From positions 1,144,001 to 1,208,000 of the forward strand of contig NC_022792.1 in assembly GCF_000504085.1 (NCBI RefSeq): a stretch of DNA of 64,000 nucleotides. Direction: 5' to 3'. Source of the DNA: Pseudothermotoga elfii DSM 9442 = NBRC 107921 (GTDB taxonomy: Bacteria; Thermotogota; Thermotogae; Thermotogales; DSM-5069). The notes below the pieces were generated by a model that worked only from the letters and a program-made list of their open reading frames with translations, was not told the DNA's origin and made no database searches. Each line of letters starts with the position of its first letter. The first letter of the stretch is position 1. The translations under genes were made by a program, and so were the position numbers. Shown one piece after another: positions 1,951-64,000 of the stretch.

Positions 1951-2035
1951 CTGAAATCACCTCGCTCTTAATAAGACTATAAGCATACTCTGCCTGCTGA
2001 AATGGATCATCATATAGATTATATTGCATATCGCT
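1951..2035. other. short spacer between recombinase and CRISPR array (leader remnant?)
   Basis: Only 85 bp separate the recombinase start codon from the first CRISPR repeat. The half next to the array is AT-rich (catcatatagattatattg), as leaders are. The half next to the recombinase carries that gene's ribosome-binding site. If the array is read on the + strand, its leader must lie here and is unusually short or truncated. Confidence 0.5.
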
Positions 2036-3244
2036 GTTTCAATCGAACCTTAGAGGGATGGAAACCAATTTTGCTAAGCCCTCTTTTTGTGTGAATATAG
2101 AGTTTCAATCGAACCTTAGAGGGATGGAAACGAGTAGATTTTGAGAGAGAACTTCTCTATTTGCCAAGTTTCAATCGAACCTTAGAGGGATGGAAACACC
2201 ATATTTTCAACCCCTTTTAAGCAGTATAAAGCTGTTTCAATCGAACCTTAGAGGGATGGAAACAAGTTTTCGGTATTCACATAAGCACAACATTTAGCGT
2301 TTCAATCGAACCTTAGAGGGATGGAAACCTAAAATTAGCCATGTGAATGGTAATACTGGGGATGGGTTTCAATCGAACCTTAGAGGGATGGAAACTTTTC
2401 AAAGTCGGGATTTGTCAACTCACAACCACAAGTTTCAATCGAACCTTAGAGGGATGGAAACCAACCAAGGTTTGTGGTGATACAACTGTTTTCAATAGTT
2501 TCAATCGAACCTTAGAGGGATGGAAACCAACCAAGGTTTGTGGTGATACAACTGTTTTCAATAGTTTCAATCGAACCTTAGAGGGATGGAAACTGTTCAT
2601 TCCTCCTTTAAGATTTTGCAGTTTATACTGGTTTCAATCGAACCTTAGAGGGATGGAAACTATCCCTTAATATGTTGCCTAATAAAGCCTTCACCAGTTT
2701 CAATCGAACCTTAGAGGGATGGAAACCAAGTATCTTTTTAGTCCTTCGCAAAATAAAAGGTTGTTTCAATCGAACCTTAGAGGGATGGAAACGTTAAAAC
2801 TGAAAATTCTAATAACGCCTTTTTTCGGGTTTCAATCGAACCTTAGAGGGATGGAAACTCATGAAACGGACATAAGATTTTCTTTCCGTACCCAGTTTCA
2901 ATCGAACCTTAGAGGGATGGAAACTATCCCTTAATATGTTGCCTAATAAAGCCTTCACCAGTTTCAATCGAACCTTAGAGGGATGGAAACAAAATCGATC
3001 CTGCAGGTTTTGCAAAATTTTTATCCGTTTCAATCGAACCTTAGAGGGATGGAAACAAAATCGATCCTGCAGGTTTTGCAAAATTTTTATCCGTTTCAAT
3101 CGAACCTTAGAGGGATGGAAACAAAATCGATCCTGCAGGTTTTGCAAAATTTTTATCCGTTTCAATCGAACCTTAGAGGGATGGAAACGTACCTAAAAAA
3201 TCTGATGCATCTGGATCCCATTCTGGTTTCAATCGAACCTTAGA
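2036..3244 (+). CRISPR. CRISPR array, 18 full 30-bp repeats plus a truncated last repeat
   Basis: The repeat begins GTTTCAATCGAACC and ends GGATGGAAAC (30 bp). Repeats start at 2036, 2102, 2168, 2234, 2299, 2366, 2432, 2498, 2564, 2631, 2697, 2763, 2829, 2895, 2961, 3027, 3093 and 3159; as far as read they are identical. A last copy at 3226 keeps only its first 19 bases. The 18 spacers are 35-37 bp. The broken copy at the right marks the leader-distal end, so transcription should run on + with an 8-nt ATGGAAAC tag. Spacers repeat: 2462-2497 equals 2528-2563; 2661-2696 equals 2925-2960; 2991-3026, 3057-3092 and 3123-3158 are identical. No cas genes are in the window. Small reading frames across the array are artefacts of the repeat. 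Confidence 0.98.
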
Positions 3245-3270
3245 ATATCAGAACTTATTTTTCCTGAATA

Positions 3271-3298
3271 TTGATTTTCTGGAAAATCGTGGCATAAT
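3271..3298 (+). promoter_or_regulatory. sigma-70-type promoter of the glpA-like operon
   Basis: TTGATT (3271-3276), a 16-bp spacer, then CATAAT (3293-3298). Transcription would begin near 3305, so the hairpin at 3328-3355 would lie inside the 5' untranslated RNA, 70 nt before the start codon. Confidence 0.6.
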
Positions 3299-3304
3299 AT
3301 AAGT

Positions 3305-3360
3305 GGTGTGGTAAAGAGACCCGGAGAAAGCCACATCCCTTTTGGGGTGTGGCTTTTTTC
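3305..3360 (+). promoter_or_regulatory. leader RNA with terminator and competing antiterminator (GlpP-type candidate)
   Basis: A 12-bp stem (3328-3339 with 3344-3355, one G-U pair, TTTT loop) followed by six T forms a strong intrinsic terminator ahead of the glpA-like gene. An upstream segment GGTGTGG (3305-3311) can instead pair with CCACATC (3331-3337), the 5' arm of the terminator. The same two alternative helices, with compensatory base changes, occur in the leader of the glpK/glpP operon (10286-10335). In Bacillus the glpD leader terminator is overridden by GlpP with glycerol-3-phosphate, and a GlpP-family gene lies at 6390-6947. The link to GlpP is inference. Confidence 0.75.
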
Positions 3361-3376
3361 TTTGGAGGTGTTCTTG

Positions 3377-4816
3377 ATGAAAGTAGTAGTGATTGGTGGA
3401 GGAGTGGTAGGAGCTTTAATTGTAAGAGAGCTTTCTATGTATGATCTGGAAATAACTTTAATAGAAAAAAACCTTGATATAGGCTGGGGTGTTACAAAGG
3501 CTAATTCAGCTATATTGCACGCTGGTTATGATGATCCAATCGGTTCAGTAAGAGCAAAGTTCTGTGCAAAGGGAAATGAACTTTATACTCAGCTTGCAAA
3601 AGAGCTTGATTTCGAAATAAAACGTATAGGATCATATGTGATAGCTTTTGATGAACAAGAATTAGATACCCTAAAAAAATTACTCCGCCAAGGTGAAGTT
3701 AATGGGGTTCCGGGTTTGGAGATTCATGAAAAGGAAATTATCCTTGAAAAAGAACCAAATTTAAGTAAAGAAATAAAATACGGTTTGTGGGCACCGACGG
3801 CTGGCATAACTGAACCGTGGATGATCGCAATCGCAGCAGTAGAGAATGCAGTAGACAACGGGGCAAAACTGATTCTTGGTGAAAAAGTTGTTGATTTTGA
3901 AAAACACTATGACAGAATAACGAAGGTTATCACAGATAAATCATCTTATGAAGCAGATGTTGTTATAAATGCGGCAGGTCTTTTTGCTGACGAAATAGCT
4001 GAACTTGCAGGTGCAGAGTATGTGCCATTACACCCAAGGCGTGGAGAATACATACTTCTCGACAAAAAAATTGGCAATATGGTTTCTTCTGTAATTTTTC
4101 CAACACCAACCATTTTGTCTAAGGGTATTCTCGTTCTTCCAACGATAGATGGTGGTTTGCTTTTGGGCCCAACAGCGGTGGATTTGGCCAGTGACATGAA
4201 AGATAATTTATCGACAACCAGCGAGGGATTAAAGGAGATCATATCTTTCACGAAACGGTTTGTCCCATCGCTCGATTTTTCGCAAACTGTAAAAACTTTC
4301 TCCGGCTTACGTCCTGAAAGTCCTCAAAAAGACTTCTTTATTAACAACAGTGAACGGGTGAAAAATTTTATCAACATTATGGCAATGCGATCCCCGGGGT
4401 TAACTGCAGCTCCAGCAATAGCAAAACATGTTGTAGAAGAAATCATTCAGGAAAGGCTCAAAATTTCTCTATCAGCCAGGAAAGATTTCAATCCCATAAG
4501 GAAGGGAATAAAAAGTTTTTCAAAATTATCACCGAAAGAATGGCAAAAGCACGTTGAACAAAATCCATTGGCAGGTAGACTTATATGTTATTGCAACGAG
4601 GTTACGGAAGCTGAGATAGTTGAAGCGATAAAAAGAGGTGCGAGAACACTGGACGGTGTGAAGTTCAGAACGAGAGCGATGTTCGGCCGGTGCCAAGGGG
4701 GGTTTTGTTCTATAAAGATCATGAAAATTCTTGAAAGAGAATTGAATGTCGATATGTCACAAATTGTTCAGAAATCCTACAACAGCTGGATTGTTAGTGG
4801 GAGGGTCAGAGAATGA
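3377..4816 (+). CDS. glpA: FAD-dependent glycerol-3-phosphate dehydrogenase (GlpA-like) with C-terminal [2Fe-2S] domain
   Basis: This 479-residue flavoprotein would oxidise glycerol-3-phosphate to dihydroxyacetone phosphate. It opens with a dinucleotide-binding motif (VVVIGGGVVG, residues 3-12) of the DAO family. It ends in a BFD-like iron-sulfur domain with four cysteines (about C404, C406, C439, C444; CYC and GRCQGGFC). I chose the ATG at 3377 because GGAGGTG (3364-3370) precedes it; the in-frame GTG at 3308 would lie within the leader hairpin region. The stop overlaps the next ATG (ATGA), so the two oxidoreductases are translationally coupled, as expected for subunits of one complex. There is no GlpC-like subunit in view. 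The gene symbol is by family and context. Confidence 0.88.
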   Translation: MKVVVIGGGVVGALIVRELSMYDLEITLIEKNLDIGWGVTKANSAILHAGYDDPIGSVRAKFCAKGNELYTQLAKELDFEIKRIGSYVIAFDEQELDTLKKLLRQGEVNGVPGLEIHEKEIILEKEPNLSKEIKYGLWAPTAGITEPWMIAIAAVENAVDNGAKLILGEKVVDFEKHYDRITKVITDKSSYEADVVINAAGLFADEIAELAGAEYVPLHPRRGEYILLDKKIGNMVSSVIFPTPTILSKGILVLPTIDGGLLLGPTAVDLASDMKDNLSTTSEGLKEIISFTKRFVPSLDFSQTVKTFSGLRPESPQKDFFINNSERVKNFINIMAMRSPGLTAAPAIAKHVVEEIIQERLKISLSARKDFNPIRKGIKSFSKLSPKEWQKHVEQNPLAGRLICYCNEVTEAEIVEAIKRGARTLDGVKFRTRAMFGRCQGGFCSIKIMKILERELNVDMSQIVQKSYNSWIVSGRVRE

Positions 4817-50375: not shown

Positions 50376-50405
50376 TTGATAGCAGGAACTGTTCTTCTTC
50401 CTAAC

Positions 50406-50456
50406 TTGACTAATATTGAAAAAAAGCGTACAATTTATGTACGTACGTTTACGTAT
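50406..50456 (+). promoter_or_regulatory. promoter and AraR-type operator (autoregulation)
   Basis: TTGACT (50406-50411), 17 bp, TACAAT (50429-50434). Directly after it lies ATGTACGTAC (50437-50446), three bases, TACGTAT (50450-50456). The same two-part arrangement occurs at 52372-52391, and the first half at 55890-55899. The GTACGTAC core is the core of the known Bacillus AraR box. Confidence 0.75.
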
Positions 50457-50465
50457 GCTGTGGAG

Positions 50466-51530
50466 GTGGTATCAATAGTACCAAAATACAAAATAATAGA
50501 GCAAACTTTGATAAAAGAGCTGAAATCCGGGAAATACAATTCTGGCGATAAACTTCCTACAGAGAAAGAATTGATGGAGCGGTTTGAAGCCAGCAGAGAA
50601 ACTGTGAGAAAAGCGCTTGATAGATTGGCTGTCAAAGGTATTATTACCCGCAAACCTGGTGTAGGGACATTTGTGAACCTCGGGAAAGAAAACCACATGG
50701 TTGGTATAATAGTTCAGCAGATAACGAGCTACATATTTCCCTATATAGTTTTTGGAGCAGAAGATTATCTATTCAGAAATGGCTACAAGATGTTGCTTGG
50801 GAACGCATCGGAAGATCCCAACAAAGAAAAGCAAGTTATCGGTGAGTGGATTGAATCGGGAGTAACCGGTTTAATAATAGACCCTGTGTGCAGCGCAACA
50901 AAAAGGGCAAATAAAGAGTATGTAGAATCGCTGGTAAAAGAAGGAATAAAAATAGTTCTTGTTCACAGCGATTGGAATATAAATGGTACTGGCAGTGTTG
51001 TTCTTGATGATTCATACGGGGGTAAAAAAGCTGCAGAGATTTTTCATCAATTTGGTCACAAAAAAGTTGCTGTACTATATAAATCAATTCACCTGCCAAG
51101 TGTTATAAGAGCAAAAAGTTTTGTGGAGAGAGCAAATGAGCTGGGGTTTGAAAAAATTTATGAAAAATCATTCAATGTTTCCGAATTTACAGGAGCTCCA
51201 ATGCAGGGTTCTTTTGAGCTTCTCAGCCTGCCAAAGCAACTGCGCCCCACAGCTATTTTCTGCTATAATGATGCGACGGCACTTCAGCTACAGCTTGTTG
51301 CAAAACGACTTGGCCTGAGAATTCCGGAAGATGTCTCAGTTATAGGATTTGATGATGCTCCTCTGGGAGATTTCAGAGAAACTCTGACAACATTTGCTCA
51401 CCCCAAAGAAGACGTAGGCAAAAAAGCGGTAGACATTCTCTTGAAAATGATTCATGGTGGAAGAGCAGAGAAAATAATTCTACAACCGGAGTTGATAGAA
51501 AGAAGTTCTGTTTCTTCACCATCAGAATAA
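50466..51530 (+). CDS. araR: AraR-type regulator: GntR winged helix fused to LacI-like sugar domain
   Basis: About 354 residues. The GntR winged helix (about 8-70; DKLPTEKELMERFEASRETVRKALDRLAVKGIITRKPG) precedes a LacI/periplasmic-binding domain (from MVGIIVQQITSY; AIFCYNDATALQLQLVAKRLGLRIPEDVSVIGFDDAPLGD near 275-315). This architecture defines AraR, the L-arabinose-responsive repressor. Start uncertain: GTG at 50466 is given, but GGAGGTGG (50462-50469) covers it and is ideally placed for the ATA at 50475. Followed within 15 bp by an AraD-like gene. Confidence 0.87.
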   Translation: MVSIVPKYKIIEQTLIKELKSGKYNSGDKLPTEKELMERFEASRETVRKALDRLAVKGIITRKPGVGTFVNLGKENHMVGIIVQQITSYIFPYIVFGAEDYLFRNGYKMLLGNASEDPNKEKQVIGEWIESGVTGLIIDPVCSATKRANKEYVESLVKEGIKIVLVHSDWNINGTGSVVLDDSYGGKKAAEIFHQFGHKKVAVLYKSIHLPSVIRAKSFVERANELGFEKIYEKSFNVSEFTGAPMQGSFELLSLPKQLRPTAIFCYNDATALQLQLVAKRLGLRIPEDVSVIGFDDAPLGDFRETLTTFAHPKEDVGKKAVDILLKMIHGGRAEKIILQPELIERSSVSSPSE

Positions 51531-51544
51531 TCAGGAGGGGTTTC

Positions 51545-52180
51545 ATGTACGAAAAAGAAAAACAATTACTTTATGAGGCTCATTTGACCCTTGAAAAATA
51601 TGGTCTGGTAGCTTATACAAGTGGAAATGTTAGCTTGAGAATCGACGATAAGGTCTTGATTAAACCCTCTGGTGTGCCATACTCTTCTCTTAAACCATCT
51701 GACATGGTTCTTGTGGATTTAGGCGGGAAGATTTTAGATGGAAATATGAAGCCATCAGTTGATACAGCTACGCATTTGTATCTATACAGAAATATAGAAT
51801 GGGCAAAATCTATCATACACACACACTCTACCTTTGCAACTGTTTTTGCTGTACGCGAAAAACCATTGCCTGTTTTATGCACTGCACATGCAGATGTTTT
51901 TGGTGAAGAGATTCCAATTACTGAGTATGCCCCGGTAGGATCTGAAGCAATTGGAAAGGCTGTTTTAAAGGTAATGGGAAAATCAGGAACAGTTCTTTTG
52001 AGAAAGCACGGCGTAATAGTTGTTGGAACCTCAATTGAAGACGCTCTCAAAAAGGCAATTTTTCTGGAAGAAGTGGCGAAAATGAGCTATTTTGCTCTTG
52101 CAAAACAGCAAGTCACCCCACTCGATATAGATGAAATAAATAAATTACACCAACAGTACCACACAAAATACGGACAGTAA
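51545..52180 (+). CDS. araD: L-ribulose-5-phosphate 4-epimerase-like (class II aldolase family)
   Basis: 211 residues. Substrate and metal motifs of the class II aldolase/epimerase family: SGNVSLR near 22, KPSGVPY near 36, IIHTHSTFATVFA near 90-102 (zinc His), TAHADVFGEEIP near 115. The C-terminus LHQQYHTKYGQ is of the AraD kind. AraD converts L-ribulose-5-phosphate to D-xylulose-5-phosphate. L-fuculose-phosphate aldolase is the main alternative. Linked to the AraR-type gene with AGGAGGGG before the ATG. Confidence 0.83.
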   Translation: MYEKEKQLLYEAHLTLEKYGLVAYTSGNVSLRIDDKVLIKPSGVPYSSLKPSDMVLVDLGGKILDGNMKPSVDTATHLYLYRNIEWAKSIIHTHSTFATVFAVREKPLPVLCTAHADVFGEEIPITEYAPVGSEAIGKAVLKVMGKSGTVLLRKHGVIVVGTSIEDALKKAIFLEEVAKMSYFALAKQQVTPLDIDEINKLHQQYHTKYGQ

Positions 52181-52331: not shown

Positions 52332-52393
52332 TTGAACTTTGAGTTTACAATTGAGTATAATTTGTGTAGTAATGTACGTACCAATACGTATTG
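52332..52393 (+). promoter_or_regulatory. promoter with double AraR-type operator
   Basis: TTGAAC (52332-52337), 18 bp, TATAAT (52356-52361). From about the transcription start onward come ATGTACGTAC (52372-52381) and the perfect 12-bp palindrome CAATACGTATTG (52382-52393). A repressor there would block elongation. The remaining 52394-52561 is AT-rich leader with no other feature recognised. Confidence 0.78.
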
Positions 52394-57337: not shown

Positions 57338-57375
57338 TTTCAAAACAAAACTGTGAATTCGGGGAGGTTAGTTTG

Positions 57376-58722
57376 ATGAGGTTTAGAATTTTCATCTTAG
57401 TATTGACGGTCCTTTTTTCTGTTCTTTTAACAGCTAAAACCATTGAATTGACGTTTGCATTCTGGGGAGATCAATTAGAAGCAAAAGCAGTAACTGAAGC
57501 TTGCGAGAAATTCAACAAAACTCATCCAAATATCAAAGTTACACCAATGCATATACCTCAATATCTCGAAAAGATATCCGCAATGATTGCCTCAGGAAAT
57601 CCACCGCATATAGCTTATCTTGTTGAAAGTCGTGTTCTTGGCTGGGCTTCCGAAGGTATTCTGGTTGATTTAACAGAACTTTTGCAGAAAGACCCTGACC
57701 CTATTATCAAAAATAAATTACCCCAGCTTTACTGGTATTACGACGGAGGAAAGAAACTCGCTGGCGTGAGTTTTGCCGCAGAATTCATGATTACTTACTA
57801 CAACAAAGATTTATTTGACAAAGCAAAGGTGCCCTACCCACCGACAAAGCCCGAAGAATGGACATGGGATAAATTTGTTGAAACGGCAAAAAAGCTGACT
57901 TTTGACAGTAAGGGAAGAACTCCCTATGATCCTAAATTCGATCCAAAAAATATCGTTCAATATGGTGCAGCAATAGGTGGAGGAGGGACAAGCCCATGGG
58001 TTCTTTATCCTCTACTGTGGTCCAATGGAGGAGATATAGTTGATGAATCAGGATATGAGGTAAGATTGGACTCACCTGAGACGATGGAAGCATTGCAAAA
58101 AATTTACGATCTTATCTACAAAGAACATGCGGCGATAGCACCTGCTGCCGCAGATGCATTTCCAAGTCTGAATGTTGCTTTGCAAACCGGCCAGGTTGCA
58201 ATGGTACTTGATGGGCAGTGGGCCATGCAGGAGGCCGCTCAGATGGCAAAGGAAGAAGGCATGAGATTTGGTGTAGCACCCCTGCCATATTTCAAAACTC
58301 CCGTCACTGGCGTAGAAGGTGCCCCTATGGGTATATTCAAAGATGCTGTAAAAGATGACCCGGAGGTATTACAGGCGACCTGGGAATTCTACAAATTTAT
58401 TCAAAATCCTGAACAGGTTGTTGACGTAGTGAGAAGCGGTTTATGGCAACCAACCACACTTGATTGGTACACAAAAGAAGAATACATAAACAAATGGCTG
58501 AATCCTGAGATACATCCGGCTGAATACAAAGCCGCAGTGATTGATTATTATCCATATGCCAGACCTTATCCAAATGCTTATTTAAAGAACGTTGCCGAAA
58601 TCAATACTATAGTTGTTCAGGAAATGAGCAGGATTTTCTACGGCAATGAAGATATCGCAAAAGTATGTAAGGAAGCTGCCGAGAAAATTAAACCGCTTCT
58701 GGCAGGAAGATACGATAAATAA
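57376..58722 (+). CDS. ABC transporter extracellular sugar-binding protein, tandem copy B
   Basis: 448 residues from the ATG at 57376 (GGGGAGG upstream). Signal peptide about 1-18. Paralogue of copy A, 38 bp downstream, sharing the permeases that follow. Two binding proteins feeding one permease pair usually widen the range of ligands, e.g. arabino-oligosaccharides of different length. Unlike copy A, it is followed by a hairpin. Confidence 0.93.
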   Translation: MRFRIFILVLTVLFSVLLTAKTIELTFAFWGDQLEAKAVTEACEKFNKTHPNIKVTPMHIPQYLEKISAMIASGNPPHIAYLVESRVLGWASEGILVDLTELLQKDPDPIIKNKLPQLYWYYDGGKKLAGVSFAAEFMITYYNKDLFDKAKVPYPPTKPEEWTWDKFVETAKKLTFDSKGRTPYDPKFDPKNIVQYGAAIGGGGTSPWVLYPLLWSNGGDIVDESGYEVRLDSPETMEALQKIYDLIYKEHAAIAPAAADAFPSLNVALQTGQVAMVLDGQWAMQEAAQMAKEEGMRFGVAPLPYFKTPVTGVEGAPMGIFKDAVKDDPEVLQATWEFYKFIQNPEQVVDVVRSGLWQPTTLDWYTKEEYINKWLNPEIHPAEYKAAVIDYYPYARPYPNAYLKNVAEINTIVVQEMSRIFYGNEDIAKVCKEAAEKIKPLLAGRYDK

Positions 58723-58751
58723 AATAAAGGGGGGCTTTCCCCCTTTTATTT
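58722..58751 (+). terminator. hairpin between binding-protein and permease genes
   Basis: AAATAAAGGGGG and CCCCCTTTTATTT pair around a short GCTTT loop (58722-58751). The AT-rich outer stem gives a T-rich 3' side, so it can act as a terminator on this strand. Confidence 0.7.
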
Positions 58752-58772: not shown

Positions 58773-59654
58773 TTGAGAAAGTTCGAACGTAAATGGGGAA
58801 TTTTGCTCGCTTTGCCTGGGATTCTCGGATATTTTATCTGGGTTCTGGGTCCAACAATTGCTGCGATATTCATGAGTTTTACCAACTGGTCCCTTGCAGG
58901 AAATCCTCAATGGATAGGTTTTGAAAACTACGCAAAGCTCTTTGATGATTTCATTTTCAAAAAATCAATTTTTATAACTTTTTACTACGCTGTTGGGAGT
59001 GTCGTAGCAGGGTTAGTCGTGAGTTTTTTCTGGGCTCTGCTCTTAAATTCCAAAGTTCCTGCGAGATCTATTTTTCGAACCATATTTTTTATACCATCAA
59101 TAACTCCTGCTGTTGCAGTAGCAATGGTTTGGTTGACACTTTATCATCCTCAATTTGGTTTGCTCAATCATCTTTTCAAGTCTATAGGTTTACCTGCTCT
59201 AAAATGGATTTATGATGAAAAACAGGTGATTCCTGCTTTTATTGTGATGAGCACCTGGACAATAGGTTATACCATAACAATTTTTTTGGCAGGCCTTCAG
59301 GGTATACCAAATTATCTCTACGAAGCTGCCATGCTCGATGGTGCAACATGGTGGCATAGACTCAGGCATGTCACAATTCCCATGATGACACCGACAATTT
59401 TTTTCAACCTCCTGATGGGTGTAATAGGTGCTCTTCAAGGGGGATTTACGCAGGCTTATATTATGACAAGTGGCGGGCCAAATTATGCAAGTATGTTCTA
59501 TACATACTATATTTTTCTGAACGGGTTTCAGTACGGAAAAATGGGCTATGCCTGCGCCTTATCTGTAATAATGTTCTTAATTATCATGTGTCTCACTGTA
59601 TTAATATTCAGAACCTCTCGTTACTGGGTGTACTACGAAGCACTGAGAAGATAA
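58773..59654 (+). CDS. sugar ABC transporter permease, MalF type
   Basis: 293 residues, six membrane segments, EAA loop LYEAAMLDGATWWHRLRHVTIP near 185. TTG start; AAAGGGGTG upstream. Confidence 0.92.
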   Translation: MRKFERKWGILLALPGILGYFIWVLGPTIAAIFMSFTNWSLAGNPQWIGFENYAKLFDDFIFKKSIFITFYYAVGSVVAGLVVSFFWALLLNSKVPARSIFRTIFFIPSITPAVAVAMVWLTLYHPQFGLLNHLFKSIGLPALKWIYDEKQVIPAFIVMSTWTIGYTITIFLAGLQGIPNYLYEAAMLDGATWWHRLRHVTIPMMTPTIFFNLLMGVIGALQGGFTQAYIMTSGGPNYASMFYTYYIFLNGFQYGKMGYACALSVIMFLIIMCLTVLIFRTSRYWVYYEALRR

Positions 59655-59667
59655 GGGGGTATACAGT

Positions 59668-60516
59668 GTGATAAGTACCGTTGGTAGAAAATCAAATTAT
59701 CTGACAGGCAGAATAATCGTATTTGTCATTCTTGTGATGGGAGCAATTATTTATTTGATGCCATTTTTATGGCTTATAAGGAGTTCTTTCATGACAACTG
59801 GCCAGATTTTCCGAATGCCCCTTGAGTGGATGCCTAAACCTTTCAAATGGCAGAATTACCCTCAGGCTCTCACTGCTATGCCTTTTTTCCGTTATTTGTT
59901 CAACACACTTATAGTTTTATTTTTTGTGGAAGCGGGAACGTTACTCACAGCACCTATGGCTGCTTTTGCTTTTTGCAGACTGCGCTGGCGAGGAAGAGAT
60001 CTAATGTTTTTCATAATATTAACTTCATTGATGATTCCTTATGCTGTTACGTTGATACCGACATTTATTCTCTGGAAAACACTTGGTGGGGTTAATACAT
60101 ATTTACCGTTGACGGTTCCGGCGTGGTTTGGAGGGGGAGCTTATAACATATTTTTGCTCAGACAGTTTTTTGCAGGTCTCCCAATTGAACTTGATGAAGC
60201 TGCTTATCTTGACGGAGCCACACCGTGGAATGTTTTGTGGAAAATAATCGTTCCACTATCTAAACCGGCTTTGATTACCGTTGCTGTGTTTACATTCCTT
60301 GGAGTTTGGGGAGATTTGATGGGACCTATAATTTATCTGAATGATGCAAAAAAATACACACTCGCTGTCGGACTTACTATATTTCGTGGTGCTTATAGTA
60401 CAAAATGGAATTTACTTATGGCAGCTTCAGCCGTTATCATGGTCCCGCCAATTATTCTGTATTTCATTGGTCAGAGATACTTCCAGCGCGGTATAGTCAT
60501 GACTGGTATGAAATAA
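59668..60516 (+). CDS. sugar ABC transporter permease, MalG type
   Basis: 282 residues, six membrane segments, EAA loop LDEAAYLDGATPWNVLWKIIVP near 178. GTG start after AGGGGGTA. It is followed after 14 bp by the GH127 gene, so glycan uptake and cleavage are linked. Confidence 0.93.
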   Translation: MISTVGRKSNYLTGRIIVFVILVMGAIIYLMPFLWLIRSSFMTTGQIFRMPLEWMPKPFKWQNYPQALTAMPFFRYLFNTLIVLFFVEAGTLLTAPMAAFAFCRLRWRGRDLMFFIILTSLMIPYAVTLIPTFILWKTLGGVNTYLPLTVPAWFGGGAYNIFLLRQFFAGLPIELDEAAYLDGATPWNVLWKIIVPLSKPALITVAVFTFLGVWGDLMGPIIYLNDAKKYTLAVGLTIFRGAYSTKWNLLMAASAVIMVPPIILYFIGQRYFQRGIVMTGMK

Positions 60517-60530
60517 AGGAGGCGACCTTT

Positions 60531-62426
60531 ATGGATAATAAACAAGTGATCAGAACTGAGAAAAGCCCATATTCTGTTATGAAAGGCGTAGATCTATCCG
60601 CTGTGGTGATGAAAGGTTTCCTTGGCAGGTATTTTGACAGAGCAGCTGATGTTACTCTTCCAAAGATGTATGAAACTCTTGAAAAAACTGGGAGAATTGA
60701 CAATTTCAGATTTGCTTCTAACAGGAAAGAAGGTTCTTTTCAGGGCTTTAGATTTAATGACACGGATGCATACAAATGGATTGAGGCAGTCTCATTTCTC
60801 TTTGCTTCTCGAATAAATCCCGATCTTGAGGAAAAAGTCGATCTTGTCATAGACGAAATCATAGCTGCTCAGGATGAAGATGGTTATCTTGACAGCTACT
60901 ATCCAAAGAGCAGAAATCATGAAAGATGGACAGAATTAAGCTGGTCTCATGAGATGTACTGTGCTGGACATTTGCTGCAGGGTGCTATAGCACACAGGAG
61001 AATCACCGGGAAAGAAACTTTATTTAAAGCGGCTCAAAGGTTTGCAGATCTTATCGAAAAACTTTTTGGACCGGGTAAAAAACCTGAGCTTGATGGCCAT
61101 CCAGAAATTGAGATGGCTCTTGTGGAACTCTACAGAGAAACAGCTGACAGAAGATATCTTGATCTTGCAGATTATTTTATCAGAGCGCGAGGCAAGGGTA
61201 ATGCGAGCAGCAAGAAATATCCAGGTATAACGCCTGAATATTTTGTAGATCACAAGCCTTTTGTGGAACTTGAAGAAATGGTTGGACATGCAGTTAGAAT
61301 GCTTTATTTATGCTGTGGGGTTACTGATCTTTATCTTGAAACTGGAAGAGAAGATCTTTTTACCACTCTCGAGAGACTCTGGCAAAATCTGGTGGAGAAA
61401 AAAATGCATATCACTGGTGGATGTGGCTCGAGATCAGAATGGGAAGCGTTCGGGGAAAATTATGAACTACCAAACAAAAGGGCATACACAGAAACTTGCG
61501 CAGCGATAGCAAATTTCATGTGGAATTACAGAATGCTGTTTGCAACCGCTGATGGAAAATATGCCGATGTCATGGAACAAACGCTGTACAATGGACTTCT
61601 CTCAGGCATATCTACGGATGGCTGGCATTATTTTTATGACAACCCTCTTGAAAGTGATGGAACTCATCGAAGGCGCGAATGGTTCGAGTGTGCATGTTGC
61701 CCACCAAATATAGCAAGGCTTATAACATCACTCCCCGGATATTTGTACAGCCTTTCAAAAGATGAAACCAGGCTCTGGATAAATCTGTACGAAGCGAATG
61801 AGATCAATCTCAACACATCCCATGGAACCATGAAACTTTTGCAGGAAACTGAATATCCATGGTCGGGTGATATAAGGTTGACTGTTTTAGAATCAAATAT
61901 AGAACAATCTCTATCTTTGTATCTCAGAATACCGGGATGGGTAAGAGATTTTTCGTTGATGATTAATGGCGAACCCGTGGATGTCAAAATTGAAAAAGGC
62001 TATGTTGAAATAAGGAAAATATGGAAGAATAAAGACCAGATAGAACTAAAATTTGTAATGCCAGTTGAGTTGATTCAAAGTCATCCATATGTTGAAGAAA
62101 ACCGTGGAAGAGTGGCTATTAAAAGAGGACCAGTTGTTTATTGTGCCGAAGGGGTTGACAACGATTTTGATGTTCGAGCTCTTTCATTATCTTATAAATC
62201 TATGAGTGTGGATTTTGAACAAGTCGGTGGTCTTGGAAAGATTCCTGTGATAACGGGCAATGGGCATGTAGAAGAATTGTCTGCATGGAAAGGTAAACTT
62301 TATCTTCCCGTCAACACACAAAATCCGAGAACGAAACCCGTAAACTACAAATTGATACCTTACCACCTCTGGGCTAACAGAGAAGCTACCCCCATGGTAG
62401 TCTGGATCAAATTTTCTCAAGATTAG
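60531..62426 (+). CDS. GH127 beta-L-arabinofuranosidase (DUF1680 family)
   Basis: 631 residues, as expected for GH127. An all-alpha (alpha/alpha)6 catalytic domain occupies about 1-420, with beta domains after it. The cysteine-based active site is intact: TETC near 330 (Glu and Cys zinc ligands) and ECACCPPN near 385 (zinc Cys and nucleophile Cys), with GGCGSRSEWEAFGENYELPN before it. Known members release beta-1,2-linked L-arabinofuranose from hydroxyproline-linked oligosaccharides of plant extensins. No signal peptide, so it acts on imported material. Start at 60531 after AAAGGAGG. Related GH146 cannot be fully excluded. Confidence 0.9.
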   Translation: MDNKQVIRTEKSPYSVMKGVDLSAVVMKGFLGRYFDRAADVTLPKMYETLEKTGRIDNFRFASNRKEGSFQGFRFNDTDAYKWIEAVSFLFASRINPDLEEKVDLVIDEIIAAQDEDGYLDSYYPKSRNHERWTELSWSHEMYCAGHLLQGAIAHRRITGKETLFKAAQRFADLIEKLFGPGKKPELDGHPEIEMALVELYRETADRRYLDLADYFIRARGKGNASSKKYPGITPEYFVDHKPFVELEEMVGHAVRMLYLCCGVTDLYLETGREDLFTTLERLWQNLVEKKMHITGGCGSRSEWEAFGENYELPNKRAYTETCAAIANFMWNYRMLFATADGKYADVMEQTLYNGLLSGISTDGWHYFYDNPLESDGTHRRREWFECACCPPNIARLITSLPGYLYSLSKDETRLWINLYEANEINLNTSHGTMKLLQETEYPWSGDIRLTVLESNIEQSLSLYLRIPGWVRDFSLMINGEPVDVKIEKGYVEIRKIWKNKDQIELKFVMPVELIQSHPYVEENRGRVAIKRGPVVYCAEGVDNDFDVRALSLSYKSMSVDFEQVGGLGKIPVITGNGHVEELSAWKGKLYLPVNTQNPRTKPVNYKLIPYHLWANREATPMVVWIKFSQD

Positions 62427-62437
62427 GAGGATAGATA

Positions 62438-63523
62438 ATGAAAAGATCTCAACAACTTTTGAATCTTGTCAGGTCCTCAATTAATCCAGATGTAGATACC
62501 ATTATGATATGGAATTACGAAAATTCTTCCAGAGCAAACACTATTTATCTGTCTGGCTTTAGAGGATCTTTCAGCGTCTTAATTTTGCGCGACGACAGTT
62601 GCTATATAGTAACTGATTCAAGGTATTTCGAACAGGCAGAAAGCGAGACTGATTTTGTTCTCGTCAGGCATGCAAACAATACACTTGCAGACACTGTATC
62701 AAATCTGCTCGAAAGATTATCTGCAAAAGTTGTTGGTTTTGAAGCACAGAGACTGGACTGTAAAAGTTACAGTGATCTGACTGAGAAAATCAATGTGAAA
62801 TTCGTCCCAATTGACAGTGCAATTCATCAACTCAGGTCTGTCAAGACACAGGAAGAAATTGAGTCCATACGCAAAGCAACCATGGTAGCAGAACAGGCAT
62901 TTTTAGAAACTCTAAAGTTCATTAAAGAGGGTGTGACAGAAGCTGAAATATGTGCCGAACTGGAGTACAGAATTAAAAAGCTTGGAGGGCAGGTTGGGTT
63001 TGAAACGCTCATAGGTTCTGGCCCAAGAACATCTATGCCGCATGTTAAGCCGACAAATAAGCAGGTAAGAAATGGCGAACTGATTTTATTTGATTTCGGT
63101 GCACGAGTAGATGAATACTGTTGTGATATAACACGAATGGTAGTGATAGGGAGTGCTTCTGAAAAAATCAAAGAGTGCTATTATATTGTAAAGCAATCTC
63201 TCAAGAAGGCAACCGAGGCAGGCAAAGCCGGTATGAGTGGCAAAGATGTCGATTTTGTGGCAAGAGAGGTTGTTCAGAAAAGCAAATATTCCGAGTTCTG
63301 CTTCAGATATGGTTTAGGACATGGTATAGGACTTGAGGTTCACGAAGAGCCAAGGTTCAGTCCTAAAGCTACTGATCCATTGCCAGAGAATGCTGTTGTA
63401 ACTATTGAGCCTGGTATTTATATTCCCGGTGAATTTGGGATAAGAATCGAAAACGACGTGATTGTAAAAAGTTCATCTTTTGAAACAATAACAACTCTGT
63501 CAGAGGACCTGACAGTACTTTAA
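62438..63523 (+). CDS. M24 metallopeptidase (Xaa-Pro aminopeptidase or dipeptidase type)
   Basis: 361 residues. N-terminal creatinase-like domain (about 1-125) and pita-bread domain (about 130-355) with all five metal ligands: LFDFGARVDEYCCDITR near 213-229 (two Asp), GLGHGIGLEVHEEP near 290 (His), TIEPGIYIPG near 325 (Glu), RIENDV near 340 (Glu). Such enzymes split bonds next to proline, and some accept hydroxyproline. Placed 11 bp after GH127 and 24 bp before a glycyl-radical enzyme, with GGAGGA as ribosome-binding site. Confidence 0.92.
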   Translation: MKRSQQLLNLVRSSINPDVDTIMIWNYENSSRANTIYLSGFRGSFSVLILRDDSCYIVTDSRYFEQAESETDFVLVRHANNTLADTVSNLLERLSAKVVGFEAQRLDCKSYSDLTEKINVKFVPIDSAIHQLRSVKTQEEIESIRKATMVAEQAFLETLKFIKEGVTEAEICAELEYRIKKLGGQVGFETLIGSGPRTSMPHVKPTNKQVRNGELILFDFGARVDEYCCDITRMVVIGSASEKIKECYYIVKQSLKKATEAGKAGMSGKDVDFVAREVVQKSKYSEFCFRYGLGHGIGLEVHEEPRFSPKATDPLPENAVVTIEPGIYIPGEFGIRIENDVIVKSSSFETITTLSEDLTVL

Positions 63524-63547
63524 GATCTATTTCTGGAGGTGGCCAGT

Positions 63548-64000
63548 GTGGAAAGGACCAAAATATACGAAGAGCTTGAAAAAAGGCGCTCCGCTATAAA
63601 ACCGATCAACAAGCGGATCAAAAAACTCAGAGATGAAAGTGTAAGCGCTAAAGCTAAAGTTTCTCTTGAACGCGCGAAGCTTATAACTGATTTTTACAAA
63701 ATGGCGCCGAAAAATGTTTCATACCCTGTCTTACGCGCGCTGGCTTTCAAATACCTCATGGAAAACTGCAGCCTTCCAGTTGAAGATGGGCAGTTAATAA
63801 TTGGCATCAGAGGTACTGGCCCCAAAGAAGTTCCCACTTATCCAGAAATATGCGTTCACACTCTGGAGGATCTCGAGACACTGGCAACAAGAAAAAACAT
63901 GCCATTTCAGGTCGATAGTCAAACACGTAAAGTGTATGAAGAAGAAATAATACCTTTCTGGCAAGGACAGGCAATGAGAGACATTCTCTTTCAAAATTTG
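63548..64000 (+). CDS. glycyl-radical enzyme, N-terminal part, resembling trans-4-hydroxyproline dehydratase (cut by window end)
   Basis: 151 codons are visible from a GTG after GGAGGTGG, open to the window edge. The N-terminus of the PFL/diol-dehydratase-like family is clear: ISLERA-like VSLERAKLITDFYK near 36-49, ENCSLPVEDGQLIIG near 72-86, PTYPEICVHTLEDLE near 95-109, YEEEIIPFWQGQ near 131-142. PTYPEIC and EEEIIPFW are features I associate with HypD, which turns trans-4-hydroxy-L-proline into pyrroline-5-carboxylate. Glycerol or propanediol dehydratase and others share parts of this. The active-site Cys, the Gly loop and the activase gene lie beyond the window. Confidence 0.75.
   Translation, partial: MERTKIYEELEKRRSAIKPINKRIKKLRDESVSAKAKVSLERAKLITDFYKMAPKNVSYPVLRALAFKYLMENCSLPVEDGQLIIGIRGTGPKEVPTYPEICVHTLEDLETLATRKNMPFQVDSQTRKVYEEEIIPFWQGQAMRDILFQNL

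Follow-up and report, generated by a model that had tools for sequence, protein, structure and literature searches.

A predicted AraR-controlled operon joining GH127, an M24 peptidase and a HypD-type glycyl-radical enzyme in Pseudothermotoga elfii

In the window analysed here, a 64,000-nucleotide stretch of the Pseudothermotoga elfii genome, genes for a GH127 glycosidase, an M24 peptidase and a glycyl-radical enzyme (GRE) lie in a row, directly downstream of an ABC transporter with two binding proteins. Comparative sequence evidence gives good support to a functional coupling of arabinose and hydroxyproline use in this operon. The operon, predicted to be controlled by AraR, probably serves to use both parts of imported hydroxyproline-O-arabinosides, or of short glycopeptides, in the cytoplasm. 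On balance, I also lean towards a dedicated pathway for the glyco-amino acid hydroxyproline-O-arabinoside, held in one arabinose-sensed operon, with a GH127-HypD pairing that came together on three occasions, one of them in an archaeon.

Organization of the operon and its predicted control by AraR

The genome is a single contig of 2.17 Mb. The open reading frame (ORF) list places GH127 and M24 11 bp apart, and M24 and the GRE 24 bp apart, in agreement with the original prediction of three adjacent genes with this spacing after the transporter. The features are listed below, in window positions; G008 and G009 are the genomes of two sister species.

50435-50450, no strand: predicted AraR operator 5' of the regulator gene; 20.1 bits, ranked first over 75.9 kb (matrix from other genomes)
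50472-51530, + strand: AraR-like repressor; ORF matching GntR-type DNA-binding and LacI-type sensor domain models
51545-52180, + strand: AraD, L-ribulose-5-phosphate 4-epimerase of the arabinose pathway; NF005123 above cut-off
52370-52385, no strand: predicted AraR operator 5' of the first arabinoside transporter; second-ranked site, 17.6 bits
55888-55903, no strand: predicted AraR operator 5' of the GH127-M24-HypD operon; third-ranked site, 14.3 bits
56000-57337, + strand: ABC substrate-binding protein 1 of the operon; nearest solved relative 6rjy, an arabino-oligosaccharide-binding protein
57373-58722, + strand: ABC substrate-binding protein 2 of the operon; nearest solved relative 6rjy
58773-59654, + strand: ABC permease; ORF with syntenic counterparts of 90% identity in G008 and G009
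59668-60516, + strand: ABC permease; ORF with syntenic counterparts of 86-87% identity in G008 and G009
60531-62426, + strand: GH127 (beta-L-arabinofuranosidase family); three GH127 Pfam domains, presumed catalytic and zinc residues of HypBA1 kept
62438-63523, + strand: M24 metallopeptidase (Xaa-Pro peptidase type), an extra paralogue; Pfam
63548-65959 (the window ends at 64000), + strand: GRE of HypD type; NF043068 above cut-off, 13 of 13 active-site residues
65949-66857 (L002 9950-10858), beyond the window: radical-SAM activase of 302 amino acids, overlapping the GRE gene

The activase gene is followed, further on, by another ABC transporter and by genes for one GH10-like and two GH51-like enzymes.

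The AraR-like repressor shares 72% identity with the regulator encoded in the T. maritima-like ara cluster, and its start codon was trimmed from position 50376 of the ORF list, guided by the operator position. For the operators, I used a matrix of eight training sites from three other genomes (G002, G003 and the T. maritima-like G035), and scanned 75.9 kb beginning with the window; since the consensus used to choose the training sites had first been noticed partly in G008 and G009, the scan is not fully blind. The three best sites precede the regulator gene, the first arabinoside transporter and the GH127-M24-HypD operon, and the score of the operon site exceeds 13.5 bits, the maximum over ten simulated stretches of equal length. 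A plain palindrome scan missed this operator, which the consensus and matrix scans both detected. The best AraR site of G008 (19.7 bits) precedes the same operon (L010 2661), and the GH127-GH51 promoter of G035 also carries a site (L131 7693). In T. maritima, the GH127 operon TM0280-abfA belongs to the AraR regulon, and arabinose induces it and araA 61- to 161-fold (PMC3750489). The predicted operator would therefore place the P. elfii operon under AraR control, with a response to arabinose by analogy with T. maritima.

The glycyl-radical enzyme, the glycosidase and the peptidase

The GRE gene starts with a GTG codon at 63548, preceded 8 bp upstream by GGAGG, and its reading frame continues intact outside the window to 65959. 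It encodes the only PFL-family GRE of the genome, with PFL-like and Gly_radical Pfam domains. The protein scores 1127 bits with the HypD model NF043068 (cut-off 1100), against 624 bits for the next model, and its nearest solved relative is HypD from C. difficile (930.7 bits, vs 503.7 for glycerol dehydratase). The two share 52% identity, and are identical at all 13 active-site positions tested, most of which the structure paper on C. difficile HypD covers in its discussion or by mutation (PMC7077986); the same is true of the two sister proteins. These positions comprise Cys434-x-Glu436 and the glycyl-radical Gly765 (C451, E453 and G781 in the ORF-list numbering), and the substrate-site residues F152, R156, H160, D278, K326, S334, D339, F340, Y450 and T645. 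In an alignment of 88 proteins, the 13-residue pattern is found in all 85 complete members of the comparison set, the remaining three being truncated or split at tested positions, and the full pattern is missing from five other GREs, glycerol dehydratase among them. A glycerol or propanediol dehydratase was rejected on the residue pattern and the scores, and the assignment of the GRE as HypD is strongly supported by its sequence. The adjoining activase scores above the cut-off of TIGR02494, and at 401.9 bits falls slightly under the equivalog cut-off of NF043069 (425).

The original prediction, which called the GRE HypD-like from its first part, had proposed that grouping with glycerol or propanediol dehydratases, or loss of HypD substrate residues, would speak against it. 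Neither was seen: the enzyme groups with HypD, and all of the HypD substrate residues tested are retained. The rest of the enzyme, with its Cys and Gly motifs, and the radical-SAM activase are where that prediction had suggested looking for them.

The GH127 protein contains PF07944, PF20736 and PF20737, all above their cut-offs. Residues E322, E338, C340, C417 and C418 of HypBA1, which I take to have catalytic and zinc-binding roles in that enzyme, are kept, and are identical in all 17 rows of the alignment. The sole NCBIfam match, aceric acid hydrolase (NF049879), was rejected at 520.7 bits, far under the cut-off of 950. No signal peptide could be recognised by eye on either GH127 or the M24 protein, and both are therefore expected to be cytoplasmic; it follows that the imported compound should retain its bond between sugar and amino acid. 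The GH127 family also covers other specificities, including other beta-L-arabinofuranosides. GH127 is not diagnostic for hydroxyproline use on its own, since related Thermotogales carry close homologues in ordinary arabinose clusters without HypD. As a HypD-specific marker it also fails by its distribution, with GH127 above cut-off in 19 of the 45 genomes of the order and HypD in only three.

The M24 protein combines PF01321 (Creatinase_N) and PF00557 (Peptidase_M24), and passes no NCBIfam equivalog cut-off. The metal-ligand motifs GHGIG, IEPGIY and IRIEN are present, and the two-aspartate motif DFGARVDEYCCD was recognised by eye. One M24 protein, at 44-50% identity, is encoded in each of the 11 family genomes; the housekeeping paralogue lies at G000:C1:1592307. 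A second, operon-borne copy is limited to the three HypD genomes of the family, and the operon copies form their own supported clade together with the M24 protein of locus L035, which suggests that the operon M24 is a dedicated paralogue. Its substrates would, from its family, be imido-peptides. M24-type proteins occur near HypD in 13 of about 80 loci, for a chance expectation of about two, a rough estimate that assumes three M24 genes in a genome of 2,000 genes.

Recurrence of the GH127-HypD pairing and alternative explanations

Within the order, three genomes out of 45 have a HypD-type GRE, and these belong to a single genus; it is absent from a fourth member of that genus and from the 41 others. 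With the gene pair confined to these three genomes, hypD and its activase were probably acquired laterally. All three (P. elfii; G008, locus L010; G009, locus L011, the same contig as L034) share the order ABC transporter, GH127, M24, HypD, activase, and identities to the sister-species proteins are 65-66% for GH127, 66-67% for M24, 83-84% for HypD and 62% for the activase. Because it is kept in two sister species, this gene order is not a chance juxtaposition.

The pairing recurs in two other lineages. In G079, from another Thermotogota family, GH51, GH127, M24, HypD, activase, an AraR-like regulator and a glycerol-1-phosphate dehydrogenase-like (AraM-like) protein are encoded in one run; the M24 protein here is of the aminopeptidase P type, with 593 amino acids, and is not an orthologue of the 361-residue operon M24. 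In the Crenarchaeota genome bin L067, a divergently oriented GH127 gene adjoins a peptide-type ABC transporter and HypD, on a contig without the Thermotogales arabinose cluster. A wider scan covered 80 further HypD loci, from 372 relatives, and L067 is one of them. In the HypD tree, well-supported branches force three changes, and the three GH127-bearing lineages are thus separate; in the GH127 tree the most likely topology needs three changes, and well-supported branches alone force one. The HypD-linked GH127 proteins fall in three places of their tree, and a single GH127 lineage that moved together with HypD is not supported. Assuming one or two GH127 genes in a fifth of genomes, about 0.2 GH127-HypD loci would be expected by chance among 80, so that three such lineages are unlikely to have arisen by chance, as far as this rough estimate, which is not a computed test, can tell.

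These observations bear on how the operon is best explained. It is possible, though rather unlikely, that it serves two nutrients with no physical conjugate between them: HypD and M24 would act on hydroxyproline in free form and on Pro/Hyp peptides, the transporter and GH127 would handle ordinary beta-L-arabinosides from arabinan or pectin, and the promoter would be shared since plant debris gives both. The occurrence of GH127 in the arabinose regulon of T. maritima and other Thermotogales without HypD would fit such an arrangement, as would the two binding proteins (72% identical to each other), which resemble binders of arabino-oligosaccharides and not of peptides. The scanned HypD loci also lend it some weight, since HypD mostly occurs without GH127, and most loci have peptide-type transporters and M24 peptidases. 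However, it is GH127, and no other arabinose gene, that was paired with HypD three separate times, including in an archaeon lacking the Thermotogales cluster on its contig, and no peptide transporter is encoded within the operon. Both points speak against the two-nutrient arrangement.

The enzyme might instead be a HypD-like GRE whose substrate has shifted to another hydroxyproline isomer, or to a modified hydroxyproline from plant glycoprotein. The proteins of the thermophiles form a clade apart from C. difficile HypD, with 52% identity to it, and two relatives (L035 and L067) score just under the HypD cut-off of 1100, at 1097.6 and 1087.9 bits. Against this, the active site is unchanged at every position compared, and HplG, as represented in the PDB, is a far more distant match (378.7 bits, vs 930.7 for C. 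difficile HypD), which makes a shifted substrate improbable. I regard it as highly improbable that hypD and its activase were inserted behind an arabinose operon and are merely carried along by read-through: their restriction to three genomes of the order would be in keeping with this, but the conserved order in three species, the dedicated M24 paralogue, the intact active sites and the independent GH127-HypD neighbourhoods in two other lineages are not.

Proposed pathway and relation to known systems

For the favoured reading, import and dual use of hydroxyproline-O-arabinosides of the kind carried by plant extensins, I infer the exact substrate, the peptide step and the energy role. In the presence of arabinose or arabinosides, AraR would come off its operator. 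The sugar-type ABC importer, through its two binding proteins of arabino-oligosaccharide type, would take up Ara(n)-Hyp or short Hyp-arabinosylated peptides. In the cytoplasm, GH127 would split off beta-L-arabinofuranose for the neighbouring arabinose pathway, and the M24 peptidase would release Hyp from imido-peptides. The activase would install the radical on HypD, which, as its sequence identifies it, would dehydrate trans-4-hydroxy-L-proline to pyrroline-5-carboxylate (P5C). P5C may then be converted to proline via ProC, or to glutamate via P5C dehydrogenase.

The genome encodes one ProC, above cut-off, about 0.77 Mb from hypD, and no proC was found in the 9 kb read after the activase. The one aldehyde dehydrogenase detected in the genome is P5C dehydrogenase (TIGR01236, 761 vs 613.6 bits), encoded far from the operon. 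No other genome of the family has it, the sister HypD genomes G008 and G009 included, and it was rejected as a fixed partner of the operon. No ProA scored above cut-off in the 11 family genomes, and PF09338, of the glycine/proline-reductase family, taken as the mark of D-proline reductase as an electron sink, had no match in this genome, nor in any control genome. The original interpretation is partly supported: the identity of the GRE as HypD and the link between arabinose and hydroxyproline have gained support, the latter from the conservation, the three independent pairings and the AraR operators; the proC gene that it had suggested looking for in the next 5 kb is not there.

HypD pathways have been described mainly for gut bacteria (PMC7077986, PMC11574389). 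The P. elfii protein belongs to the same enzyme family as C. difficile HypD, with which it shares the tested active-site residues and an adjacent activase. In gut Clostridiales, however, hypD lies near the gene for P5C reductase and feeds Stickland fermentation (PMC7077986), whereas in P. elfii it lies in an arabinose operon with GH127 and M24, and proC is distant. The AraR-like repressor, the matching operator, the arabinoside ABC transporter, GH127, GH51 and AraD are all reminiscent of the T. maritima AraR regulon (PMC3750489), but the T. maritima-like G035 has no HypD, and neither a second M24 nor an activase in its arabinose cluster.

The HypBA1/HypBA2/HypAA system of B. longum is also similar, combining an intracellular GH127 with a sugar ABC importer for beta-L-arabino-oligosaccharides of hydroxyproline-rich glycoproteins (PMC7263609). 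There, extracellular GH43 and GH121 enzymes, an importer for beta-Ara2 and the intracellular GH127 recover arabinose from these glycoproteins; beta-Ara2 is cut off outside the cell, and the system as described includes no hydroxyproline-catabolising enzyme (PMC7263609). In P. elfii, by contrast, the peptidase, HypD and the activase share one operon with GH127, and the hydroxyproline part is therefore predicted to be imported and used as well. An earlier genome paper on Latescibacteria predicts the action of GH127 on extensin, and the portion of its account concerned here gives no hydroxyproline step (PMC4454575). I found no open-access paper linking GH127 or an arabinofuranosidase with hydroxyproline dehydratase or GREs. 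Judged on open-access text, what is new is how known parts are combined, and not the kind of enzyme.

The B. longum system, a described microbial route into hydroxyproline-rich plant glycoproteins, recovers arabinose only, and the P. elfii operon would unite both halves. The arabinose-type promoter offers a direct experimental handle. If the proposal is true, the operon would be a source of thermostable enzymes for Hyp-arabinosides, and would explain what becomes of extensin's hydroxyproline core where habitats are hot and anoxic.

Putative regulatory features and a possible second importer

A stem-loop is found within the transporter portion of the operon, and may hold the levels of the binding proteins above those of the downstream genes. 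In both sister species carrying the same operon (G008 and G009), further AraR-type sites, predicted operators of the arabinose repressor, occur close to the gene of a peptide-type ABC transporter. This transporter may act as an additional importer of the operon's substrate.

Window 58726–58746, both strands: stem-loop of high G+C content with a T run after it, in the gap that separates the permease gene from the gene of the second binding protein
G008, contig stretch L010, 18814 and 18899: AraR-type sites
G009, contig stretch L011, 6018, 6105 and 6802: AraR-type sites

Related clusters and the wider HypD clade

The GH127-M24-HypD-activase block is also present on a contig assigned to Candidatus Atribacteria (L035), where its closest relative is the block of the P. 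elfii genus (60–77% identity); this would reflect either mis-binning or lateral transfer. The HypD cluster of genome G096 (L027) is without GH127, and its adjoining M24 gene (1975–3420) is broken across several frames, as might be expected of a copy undergoing decay or of a faulty assembly.

A large HypD clade (L036–L082), mostly from thermophiles and archaea, includes members from Bipolaricaulota, Acetomicrobium, Thermosediminibacteraceae and others. The full set of HypD active-site residues is kept across this clade, and several members have M24, proline-racemase-family, ornithine-cyclodeaminase-family and FAD-oxidoreductase genes nearby.

In four related genomes (L126–L129), a further GH127 gene adjoins a distant GH127-like paralogue and an uncharacterised gene of ∼1,000 codons, with no HypD in its vicinity.

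Proline synthesis and P5C oxidation

A family-wide search identified no ProA over the cut-off in any of the 11 genomes, raising the question of the route of proline synthesis in these bacteria. A P5C dehydrogenase gene is present in P. elfii, as the sole aldehyde dehydrogenase found in this genome.

G000:C1:1526958–1528553 (L156, L161): P5C dehydrogenase gene

The remaining ten genomes of the family lack this gene, and close homologues of the P. elfii sequence occur in another Thermotogota family (52–58% identity). The gene was probably acquired laterally.
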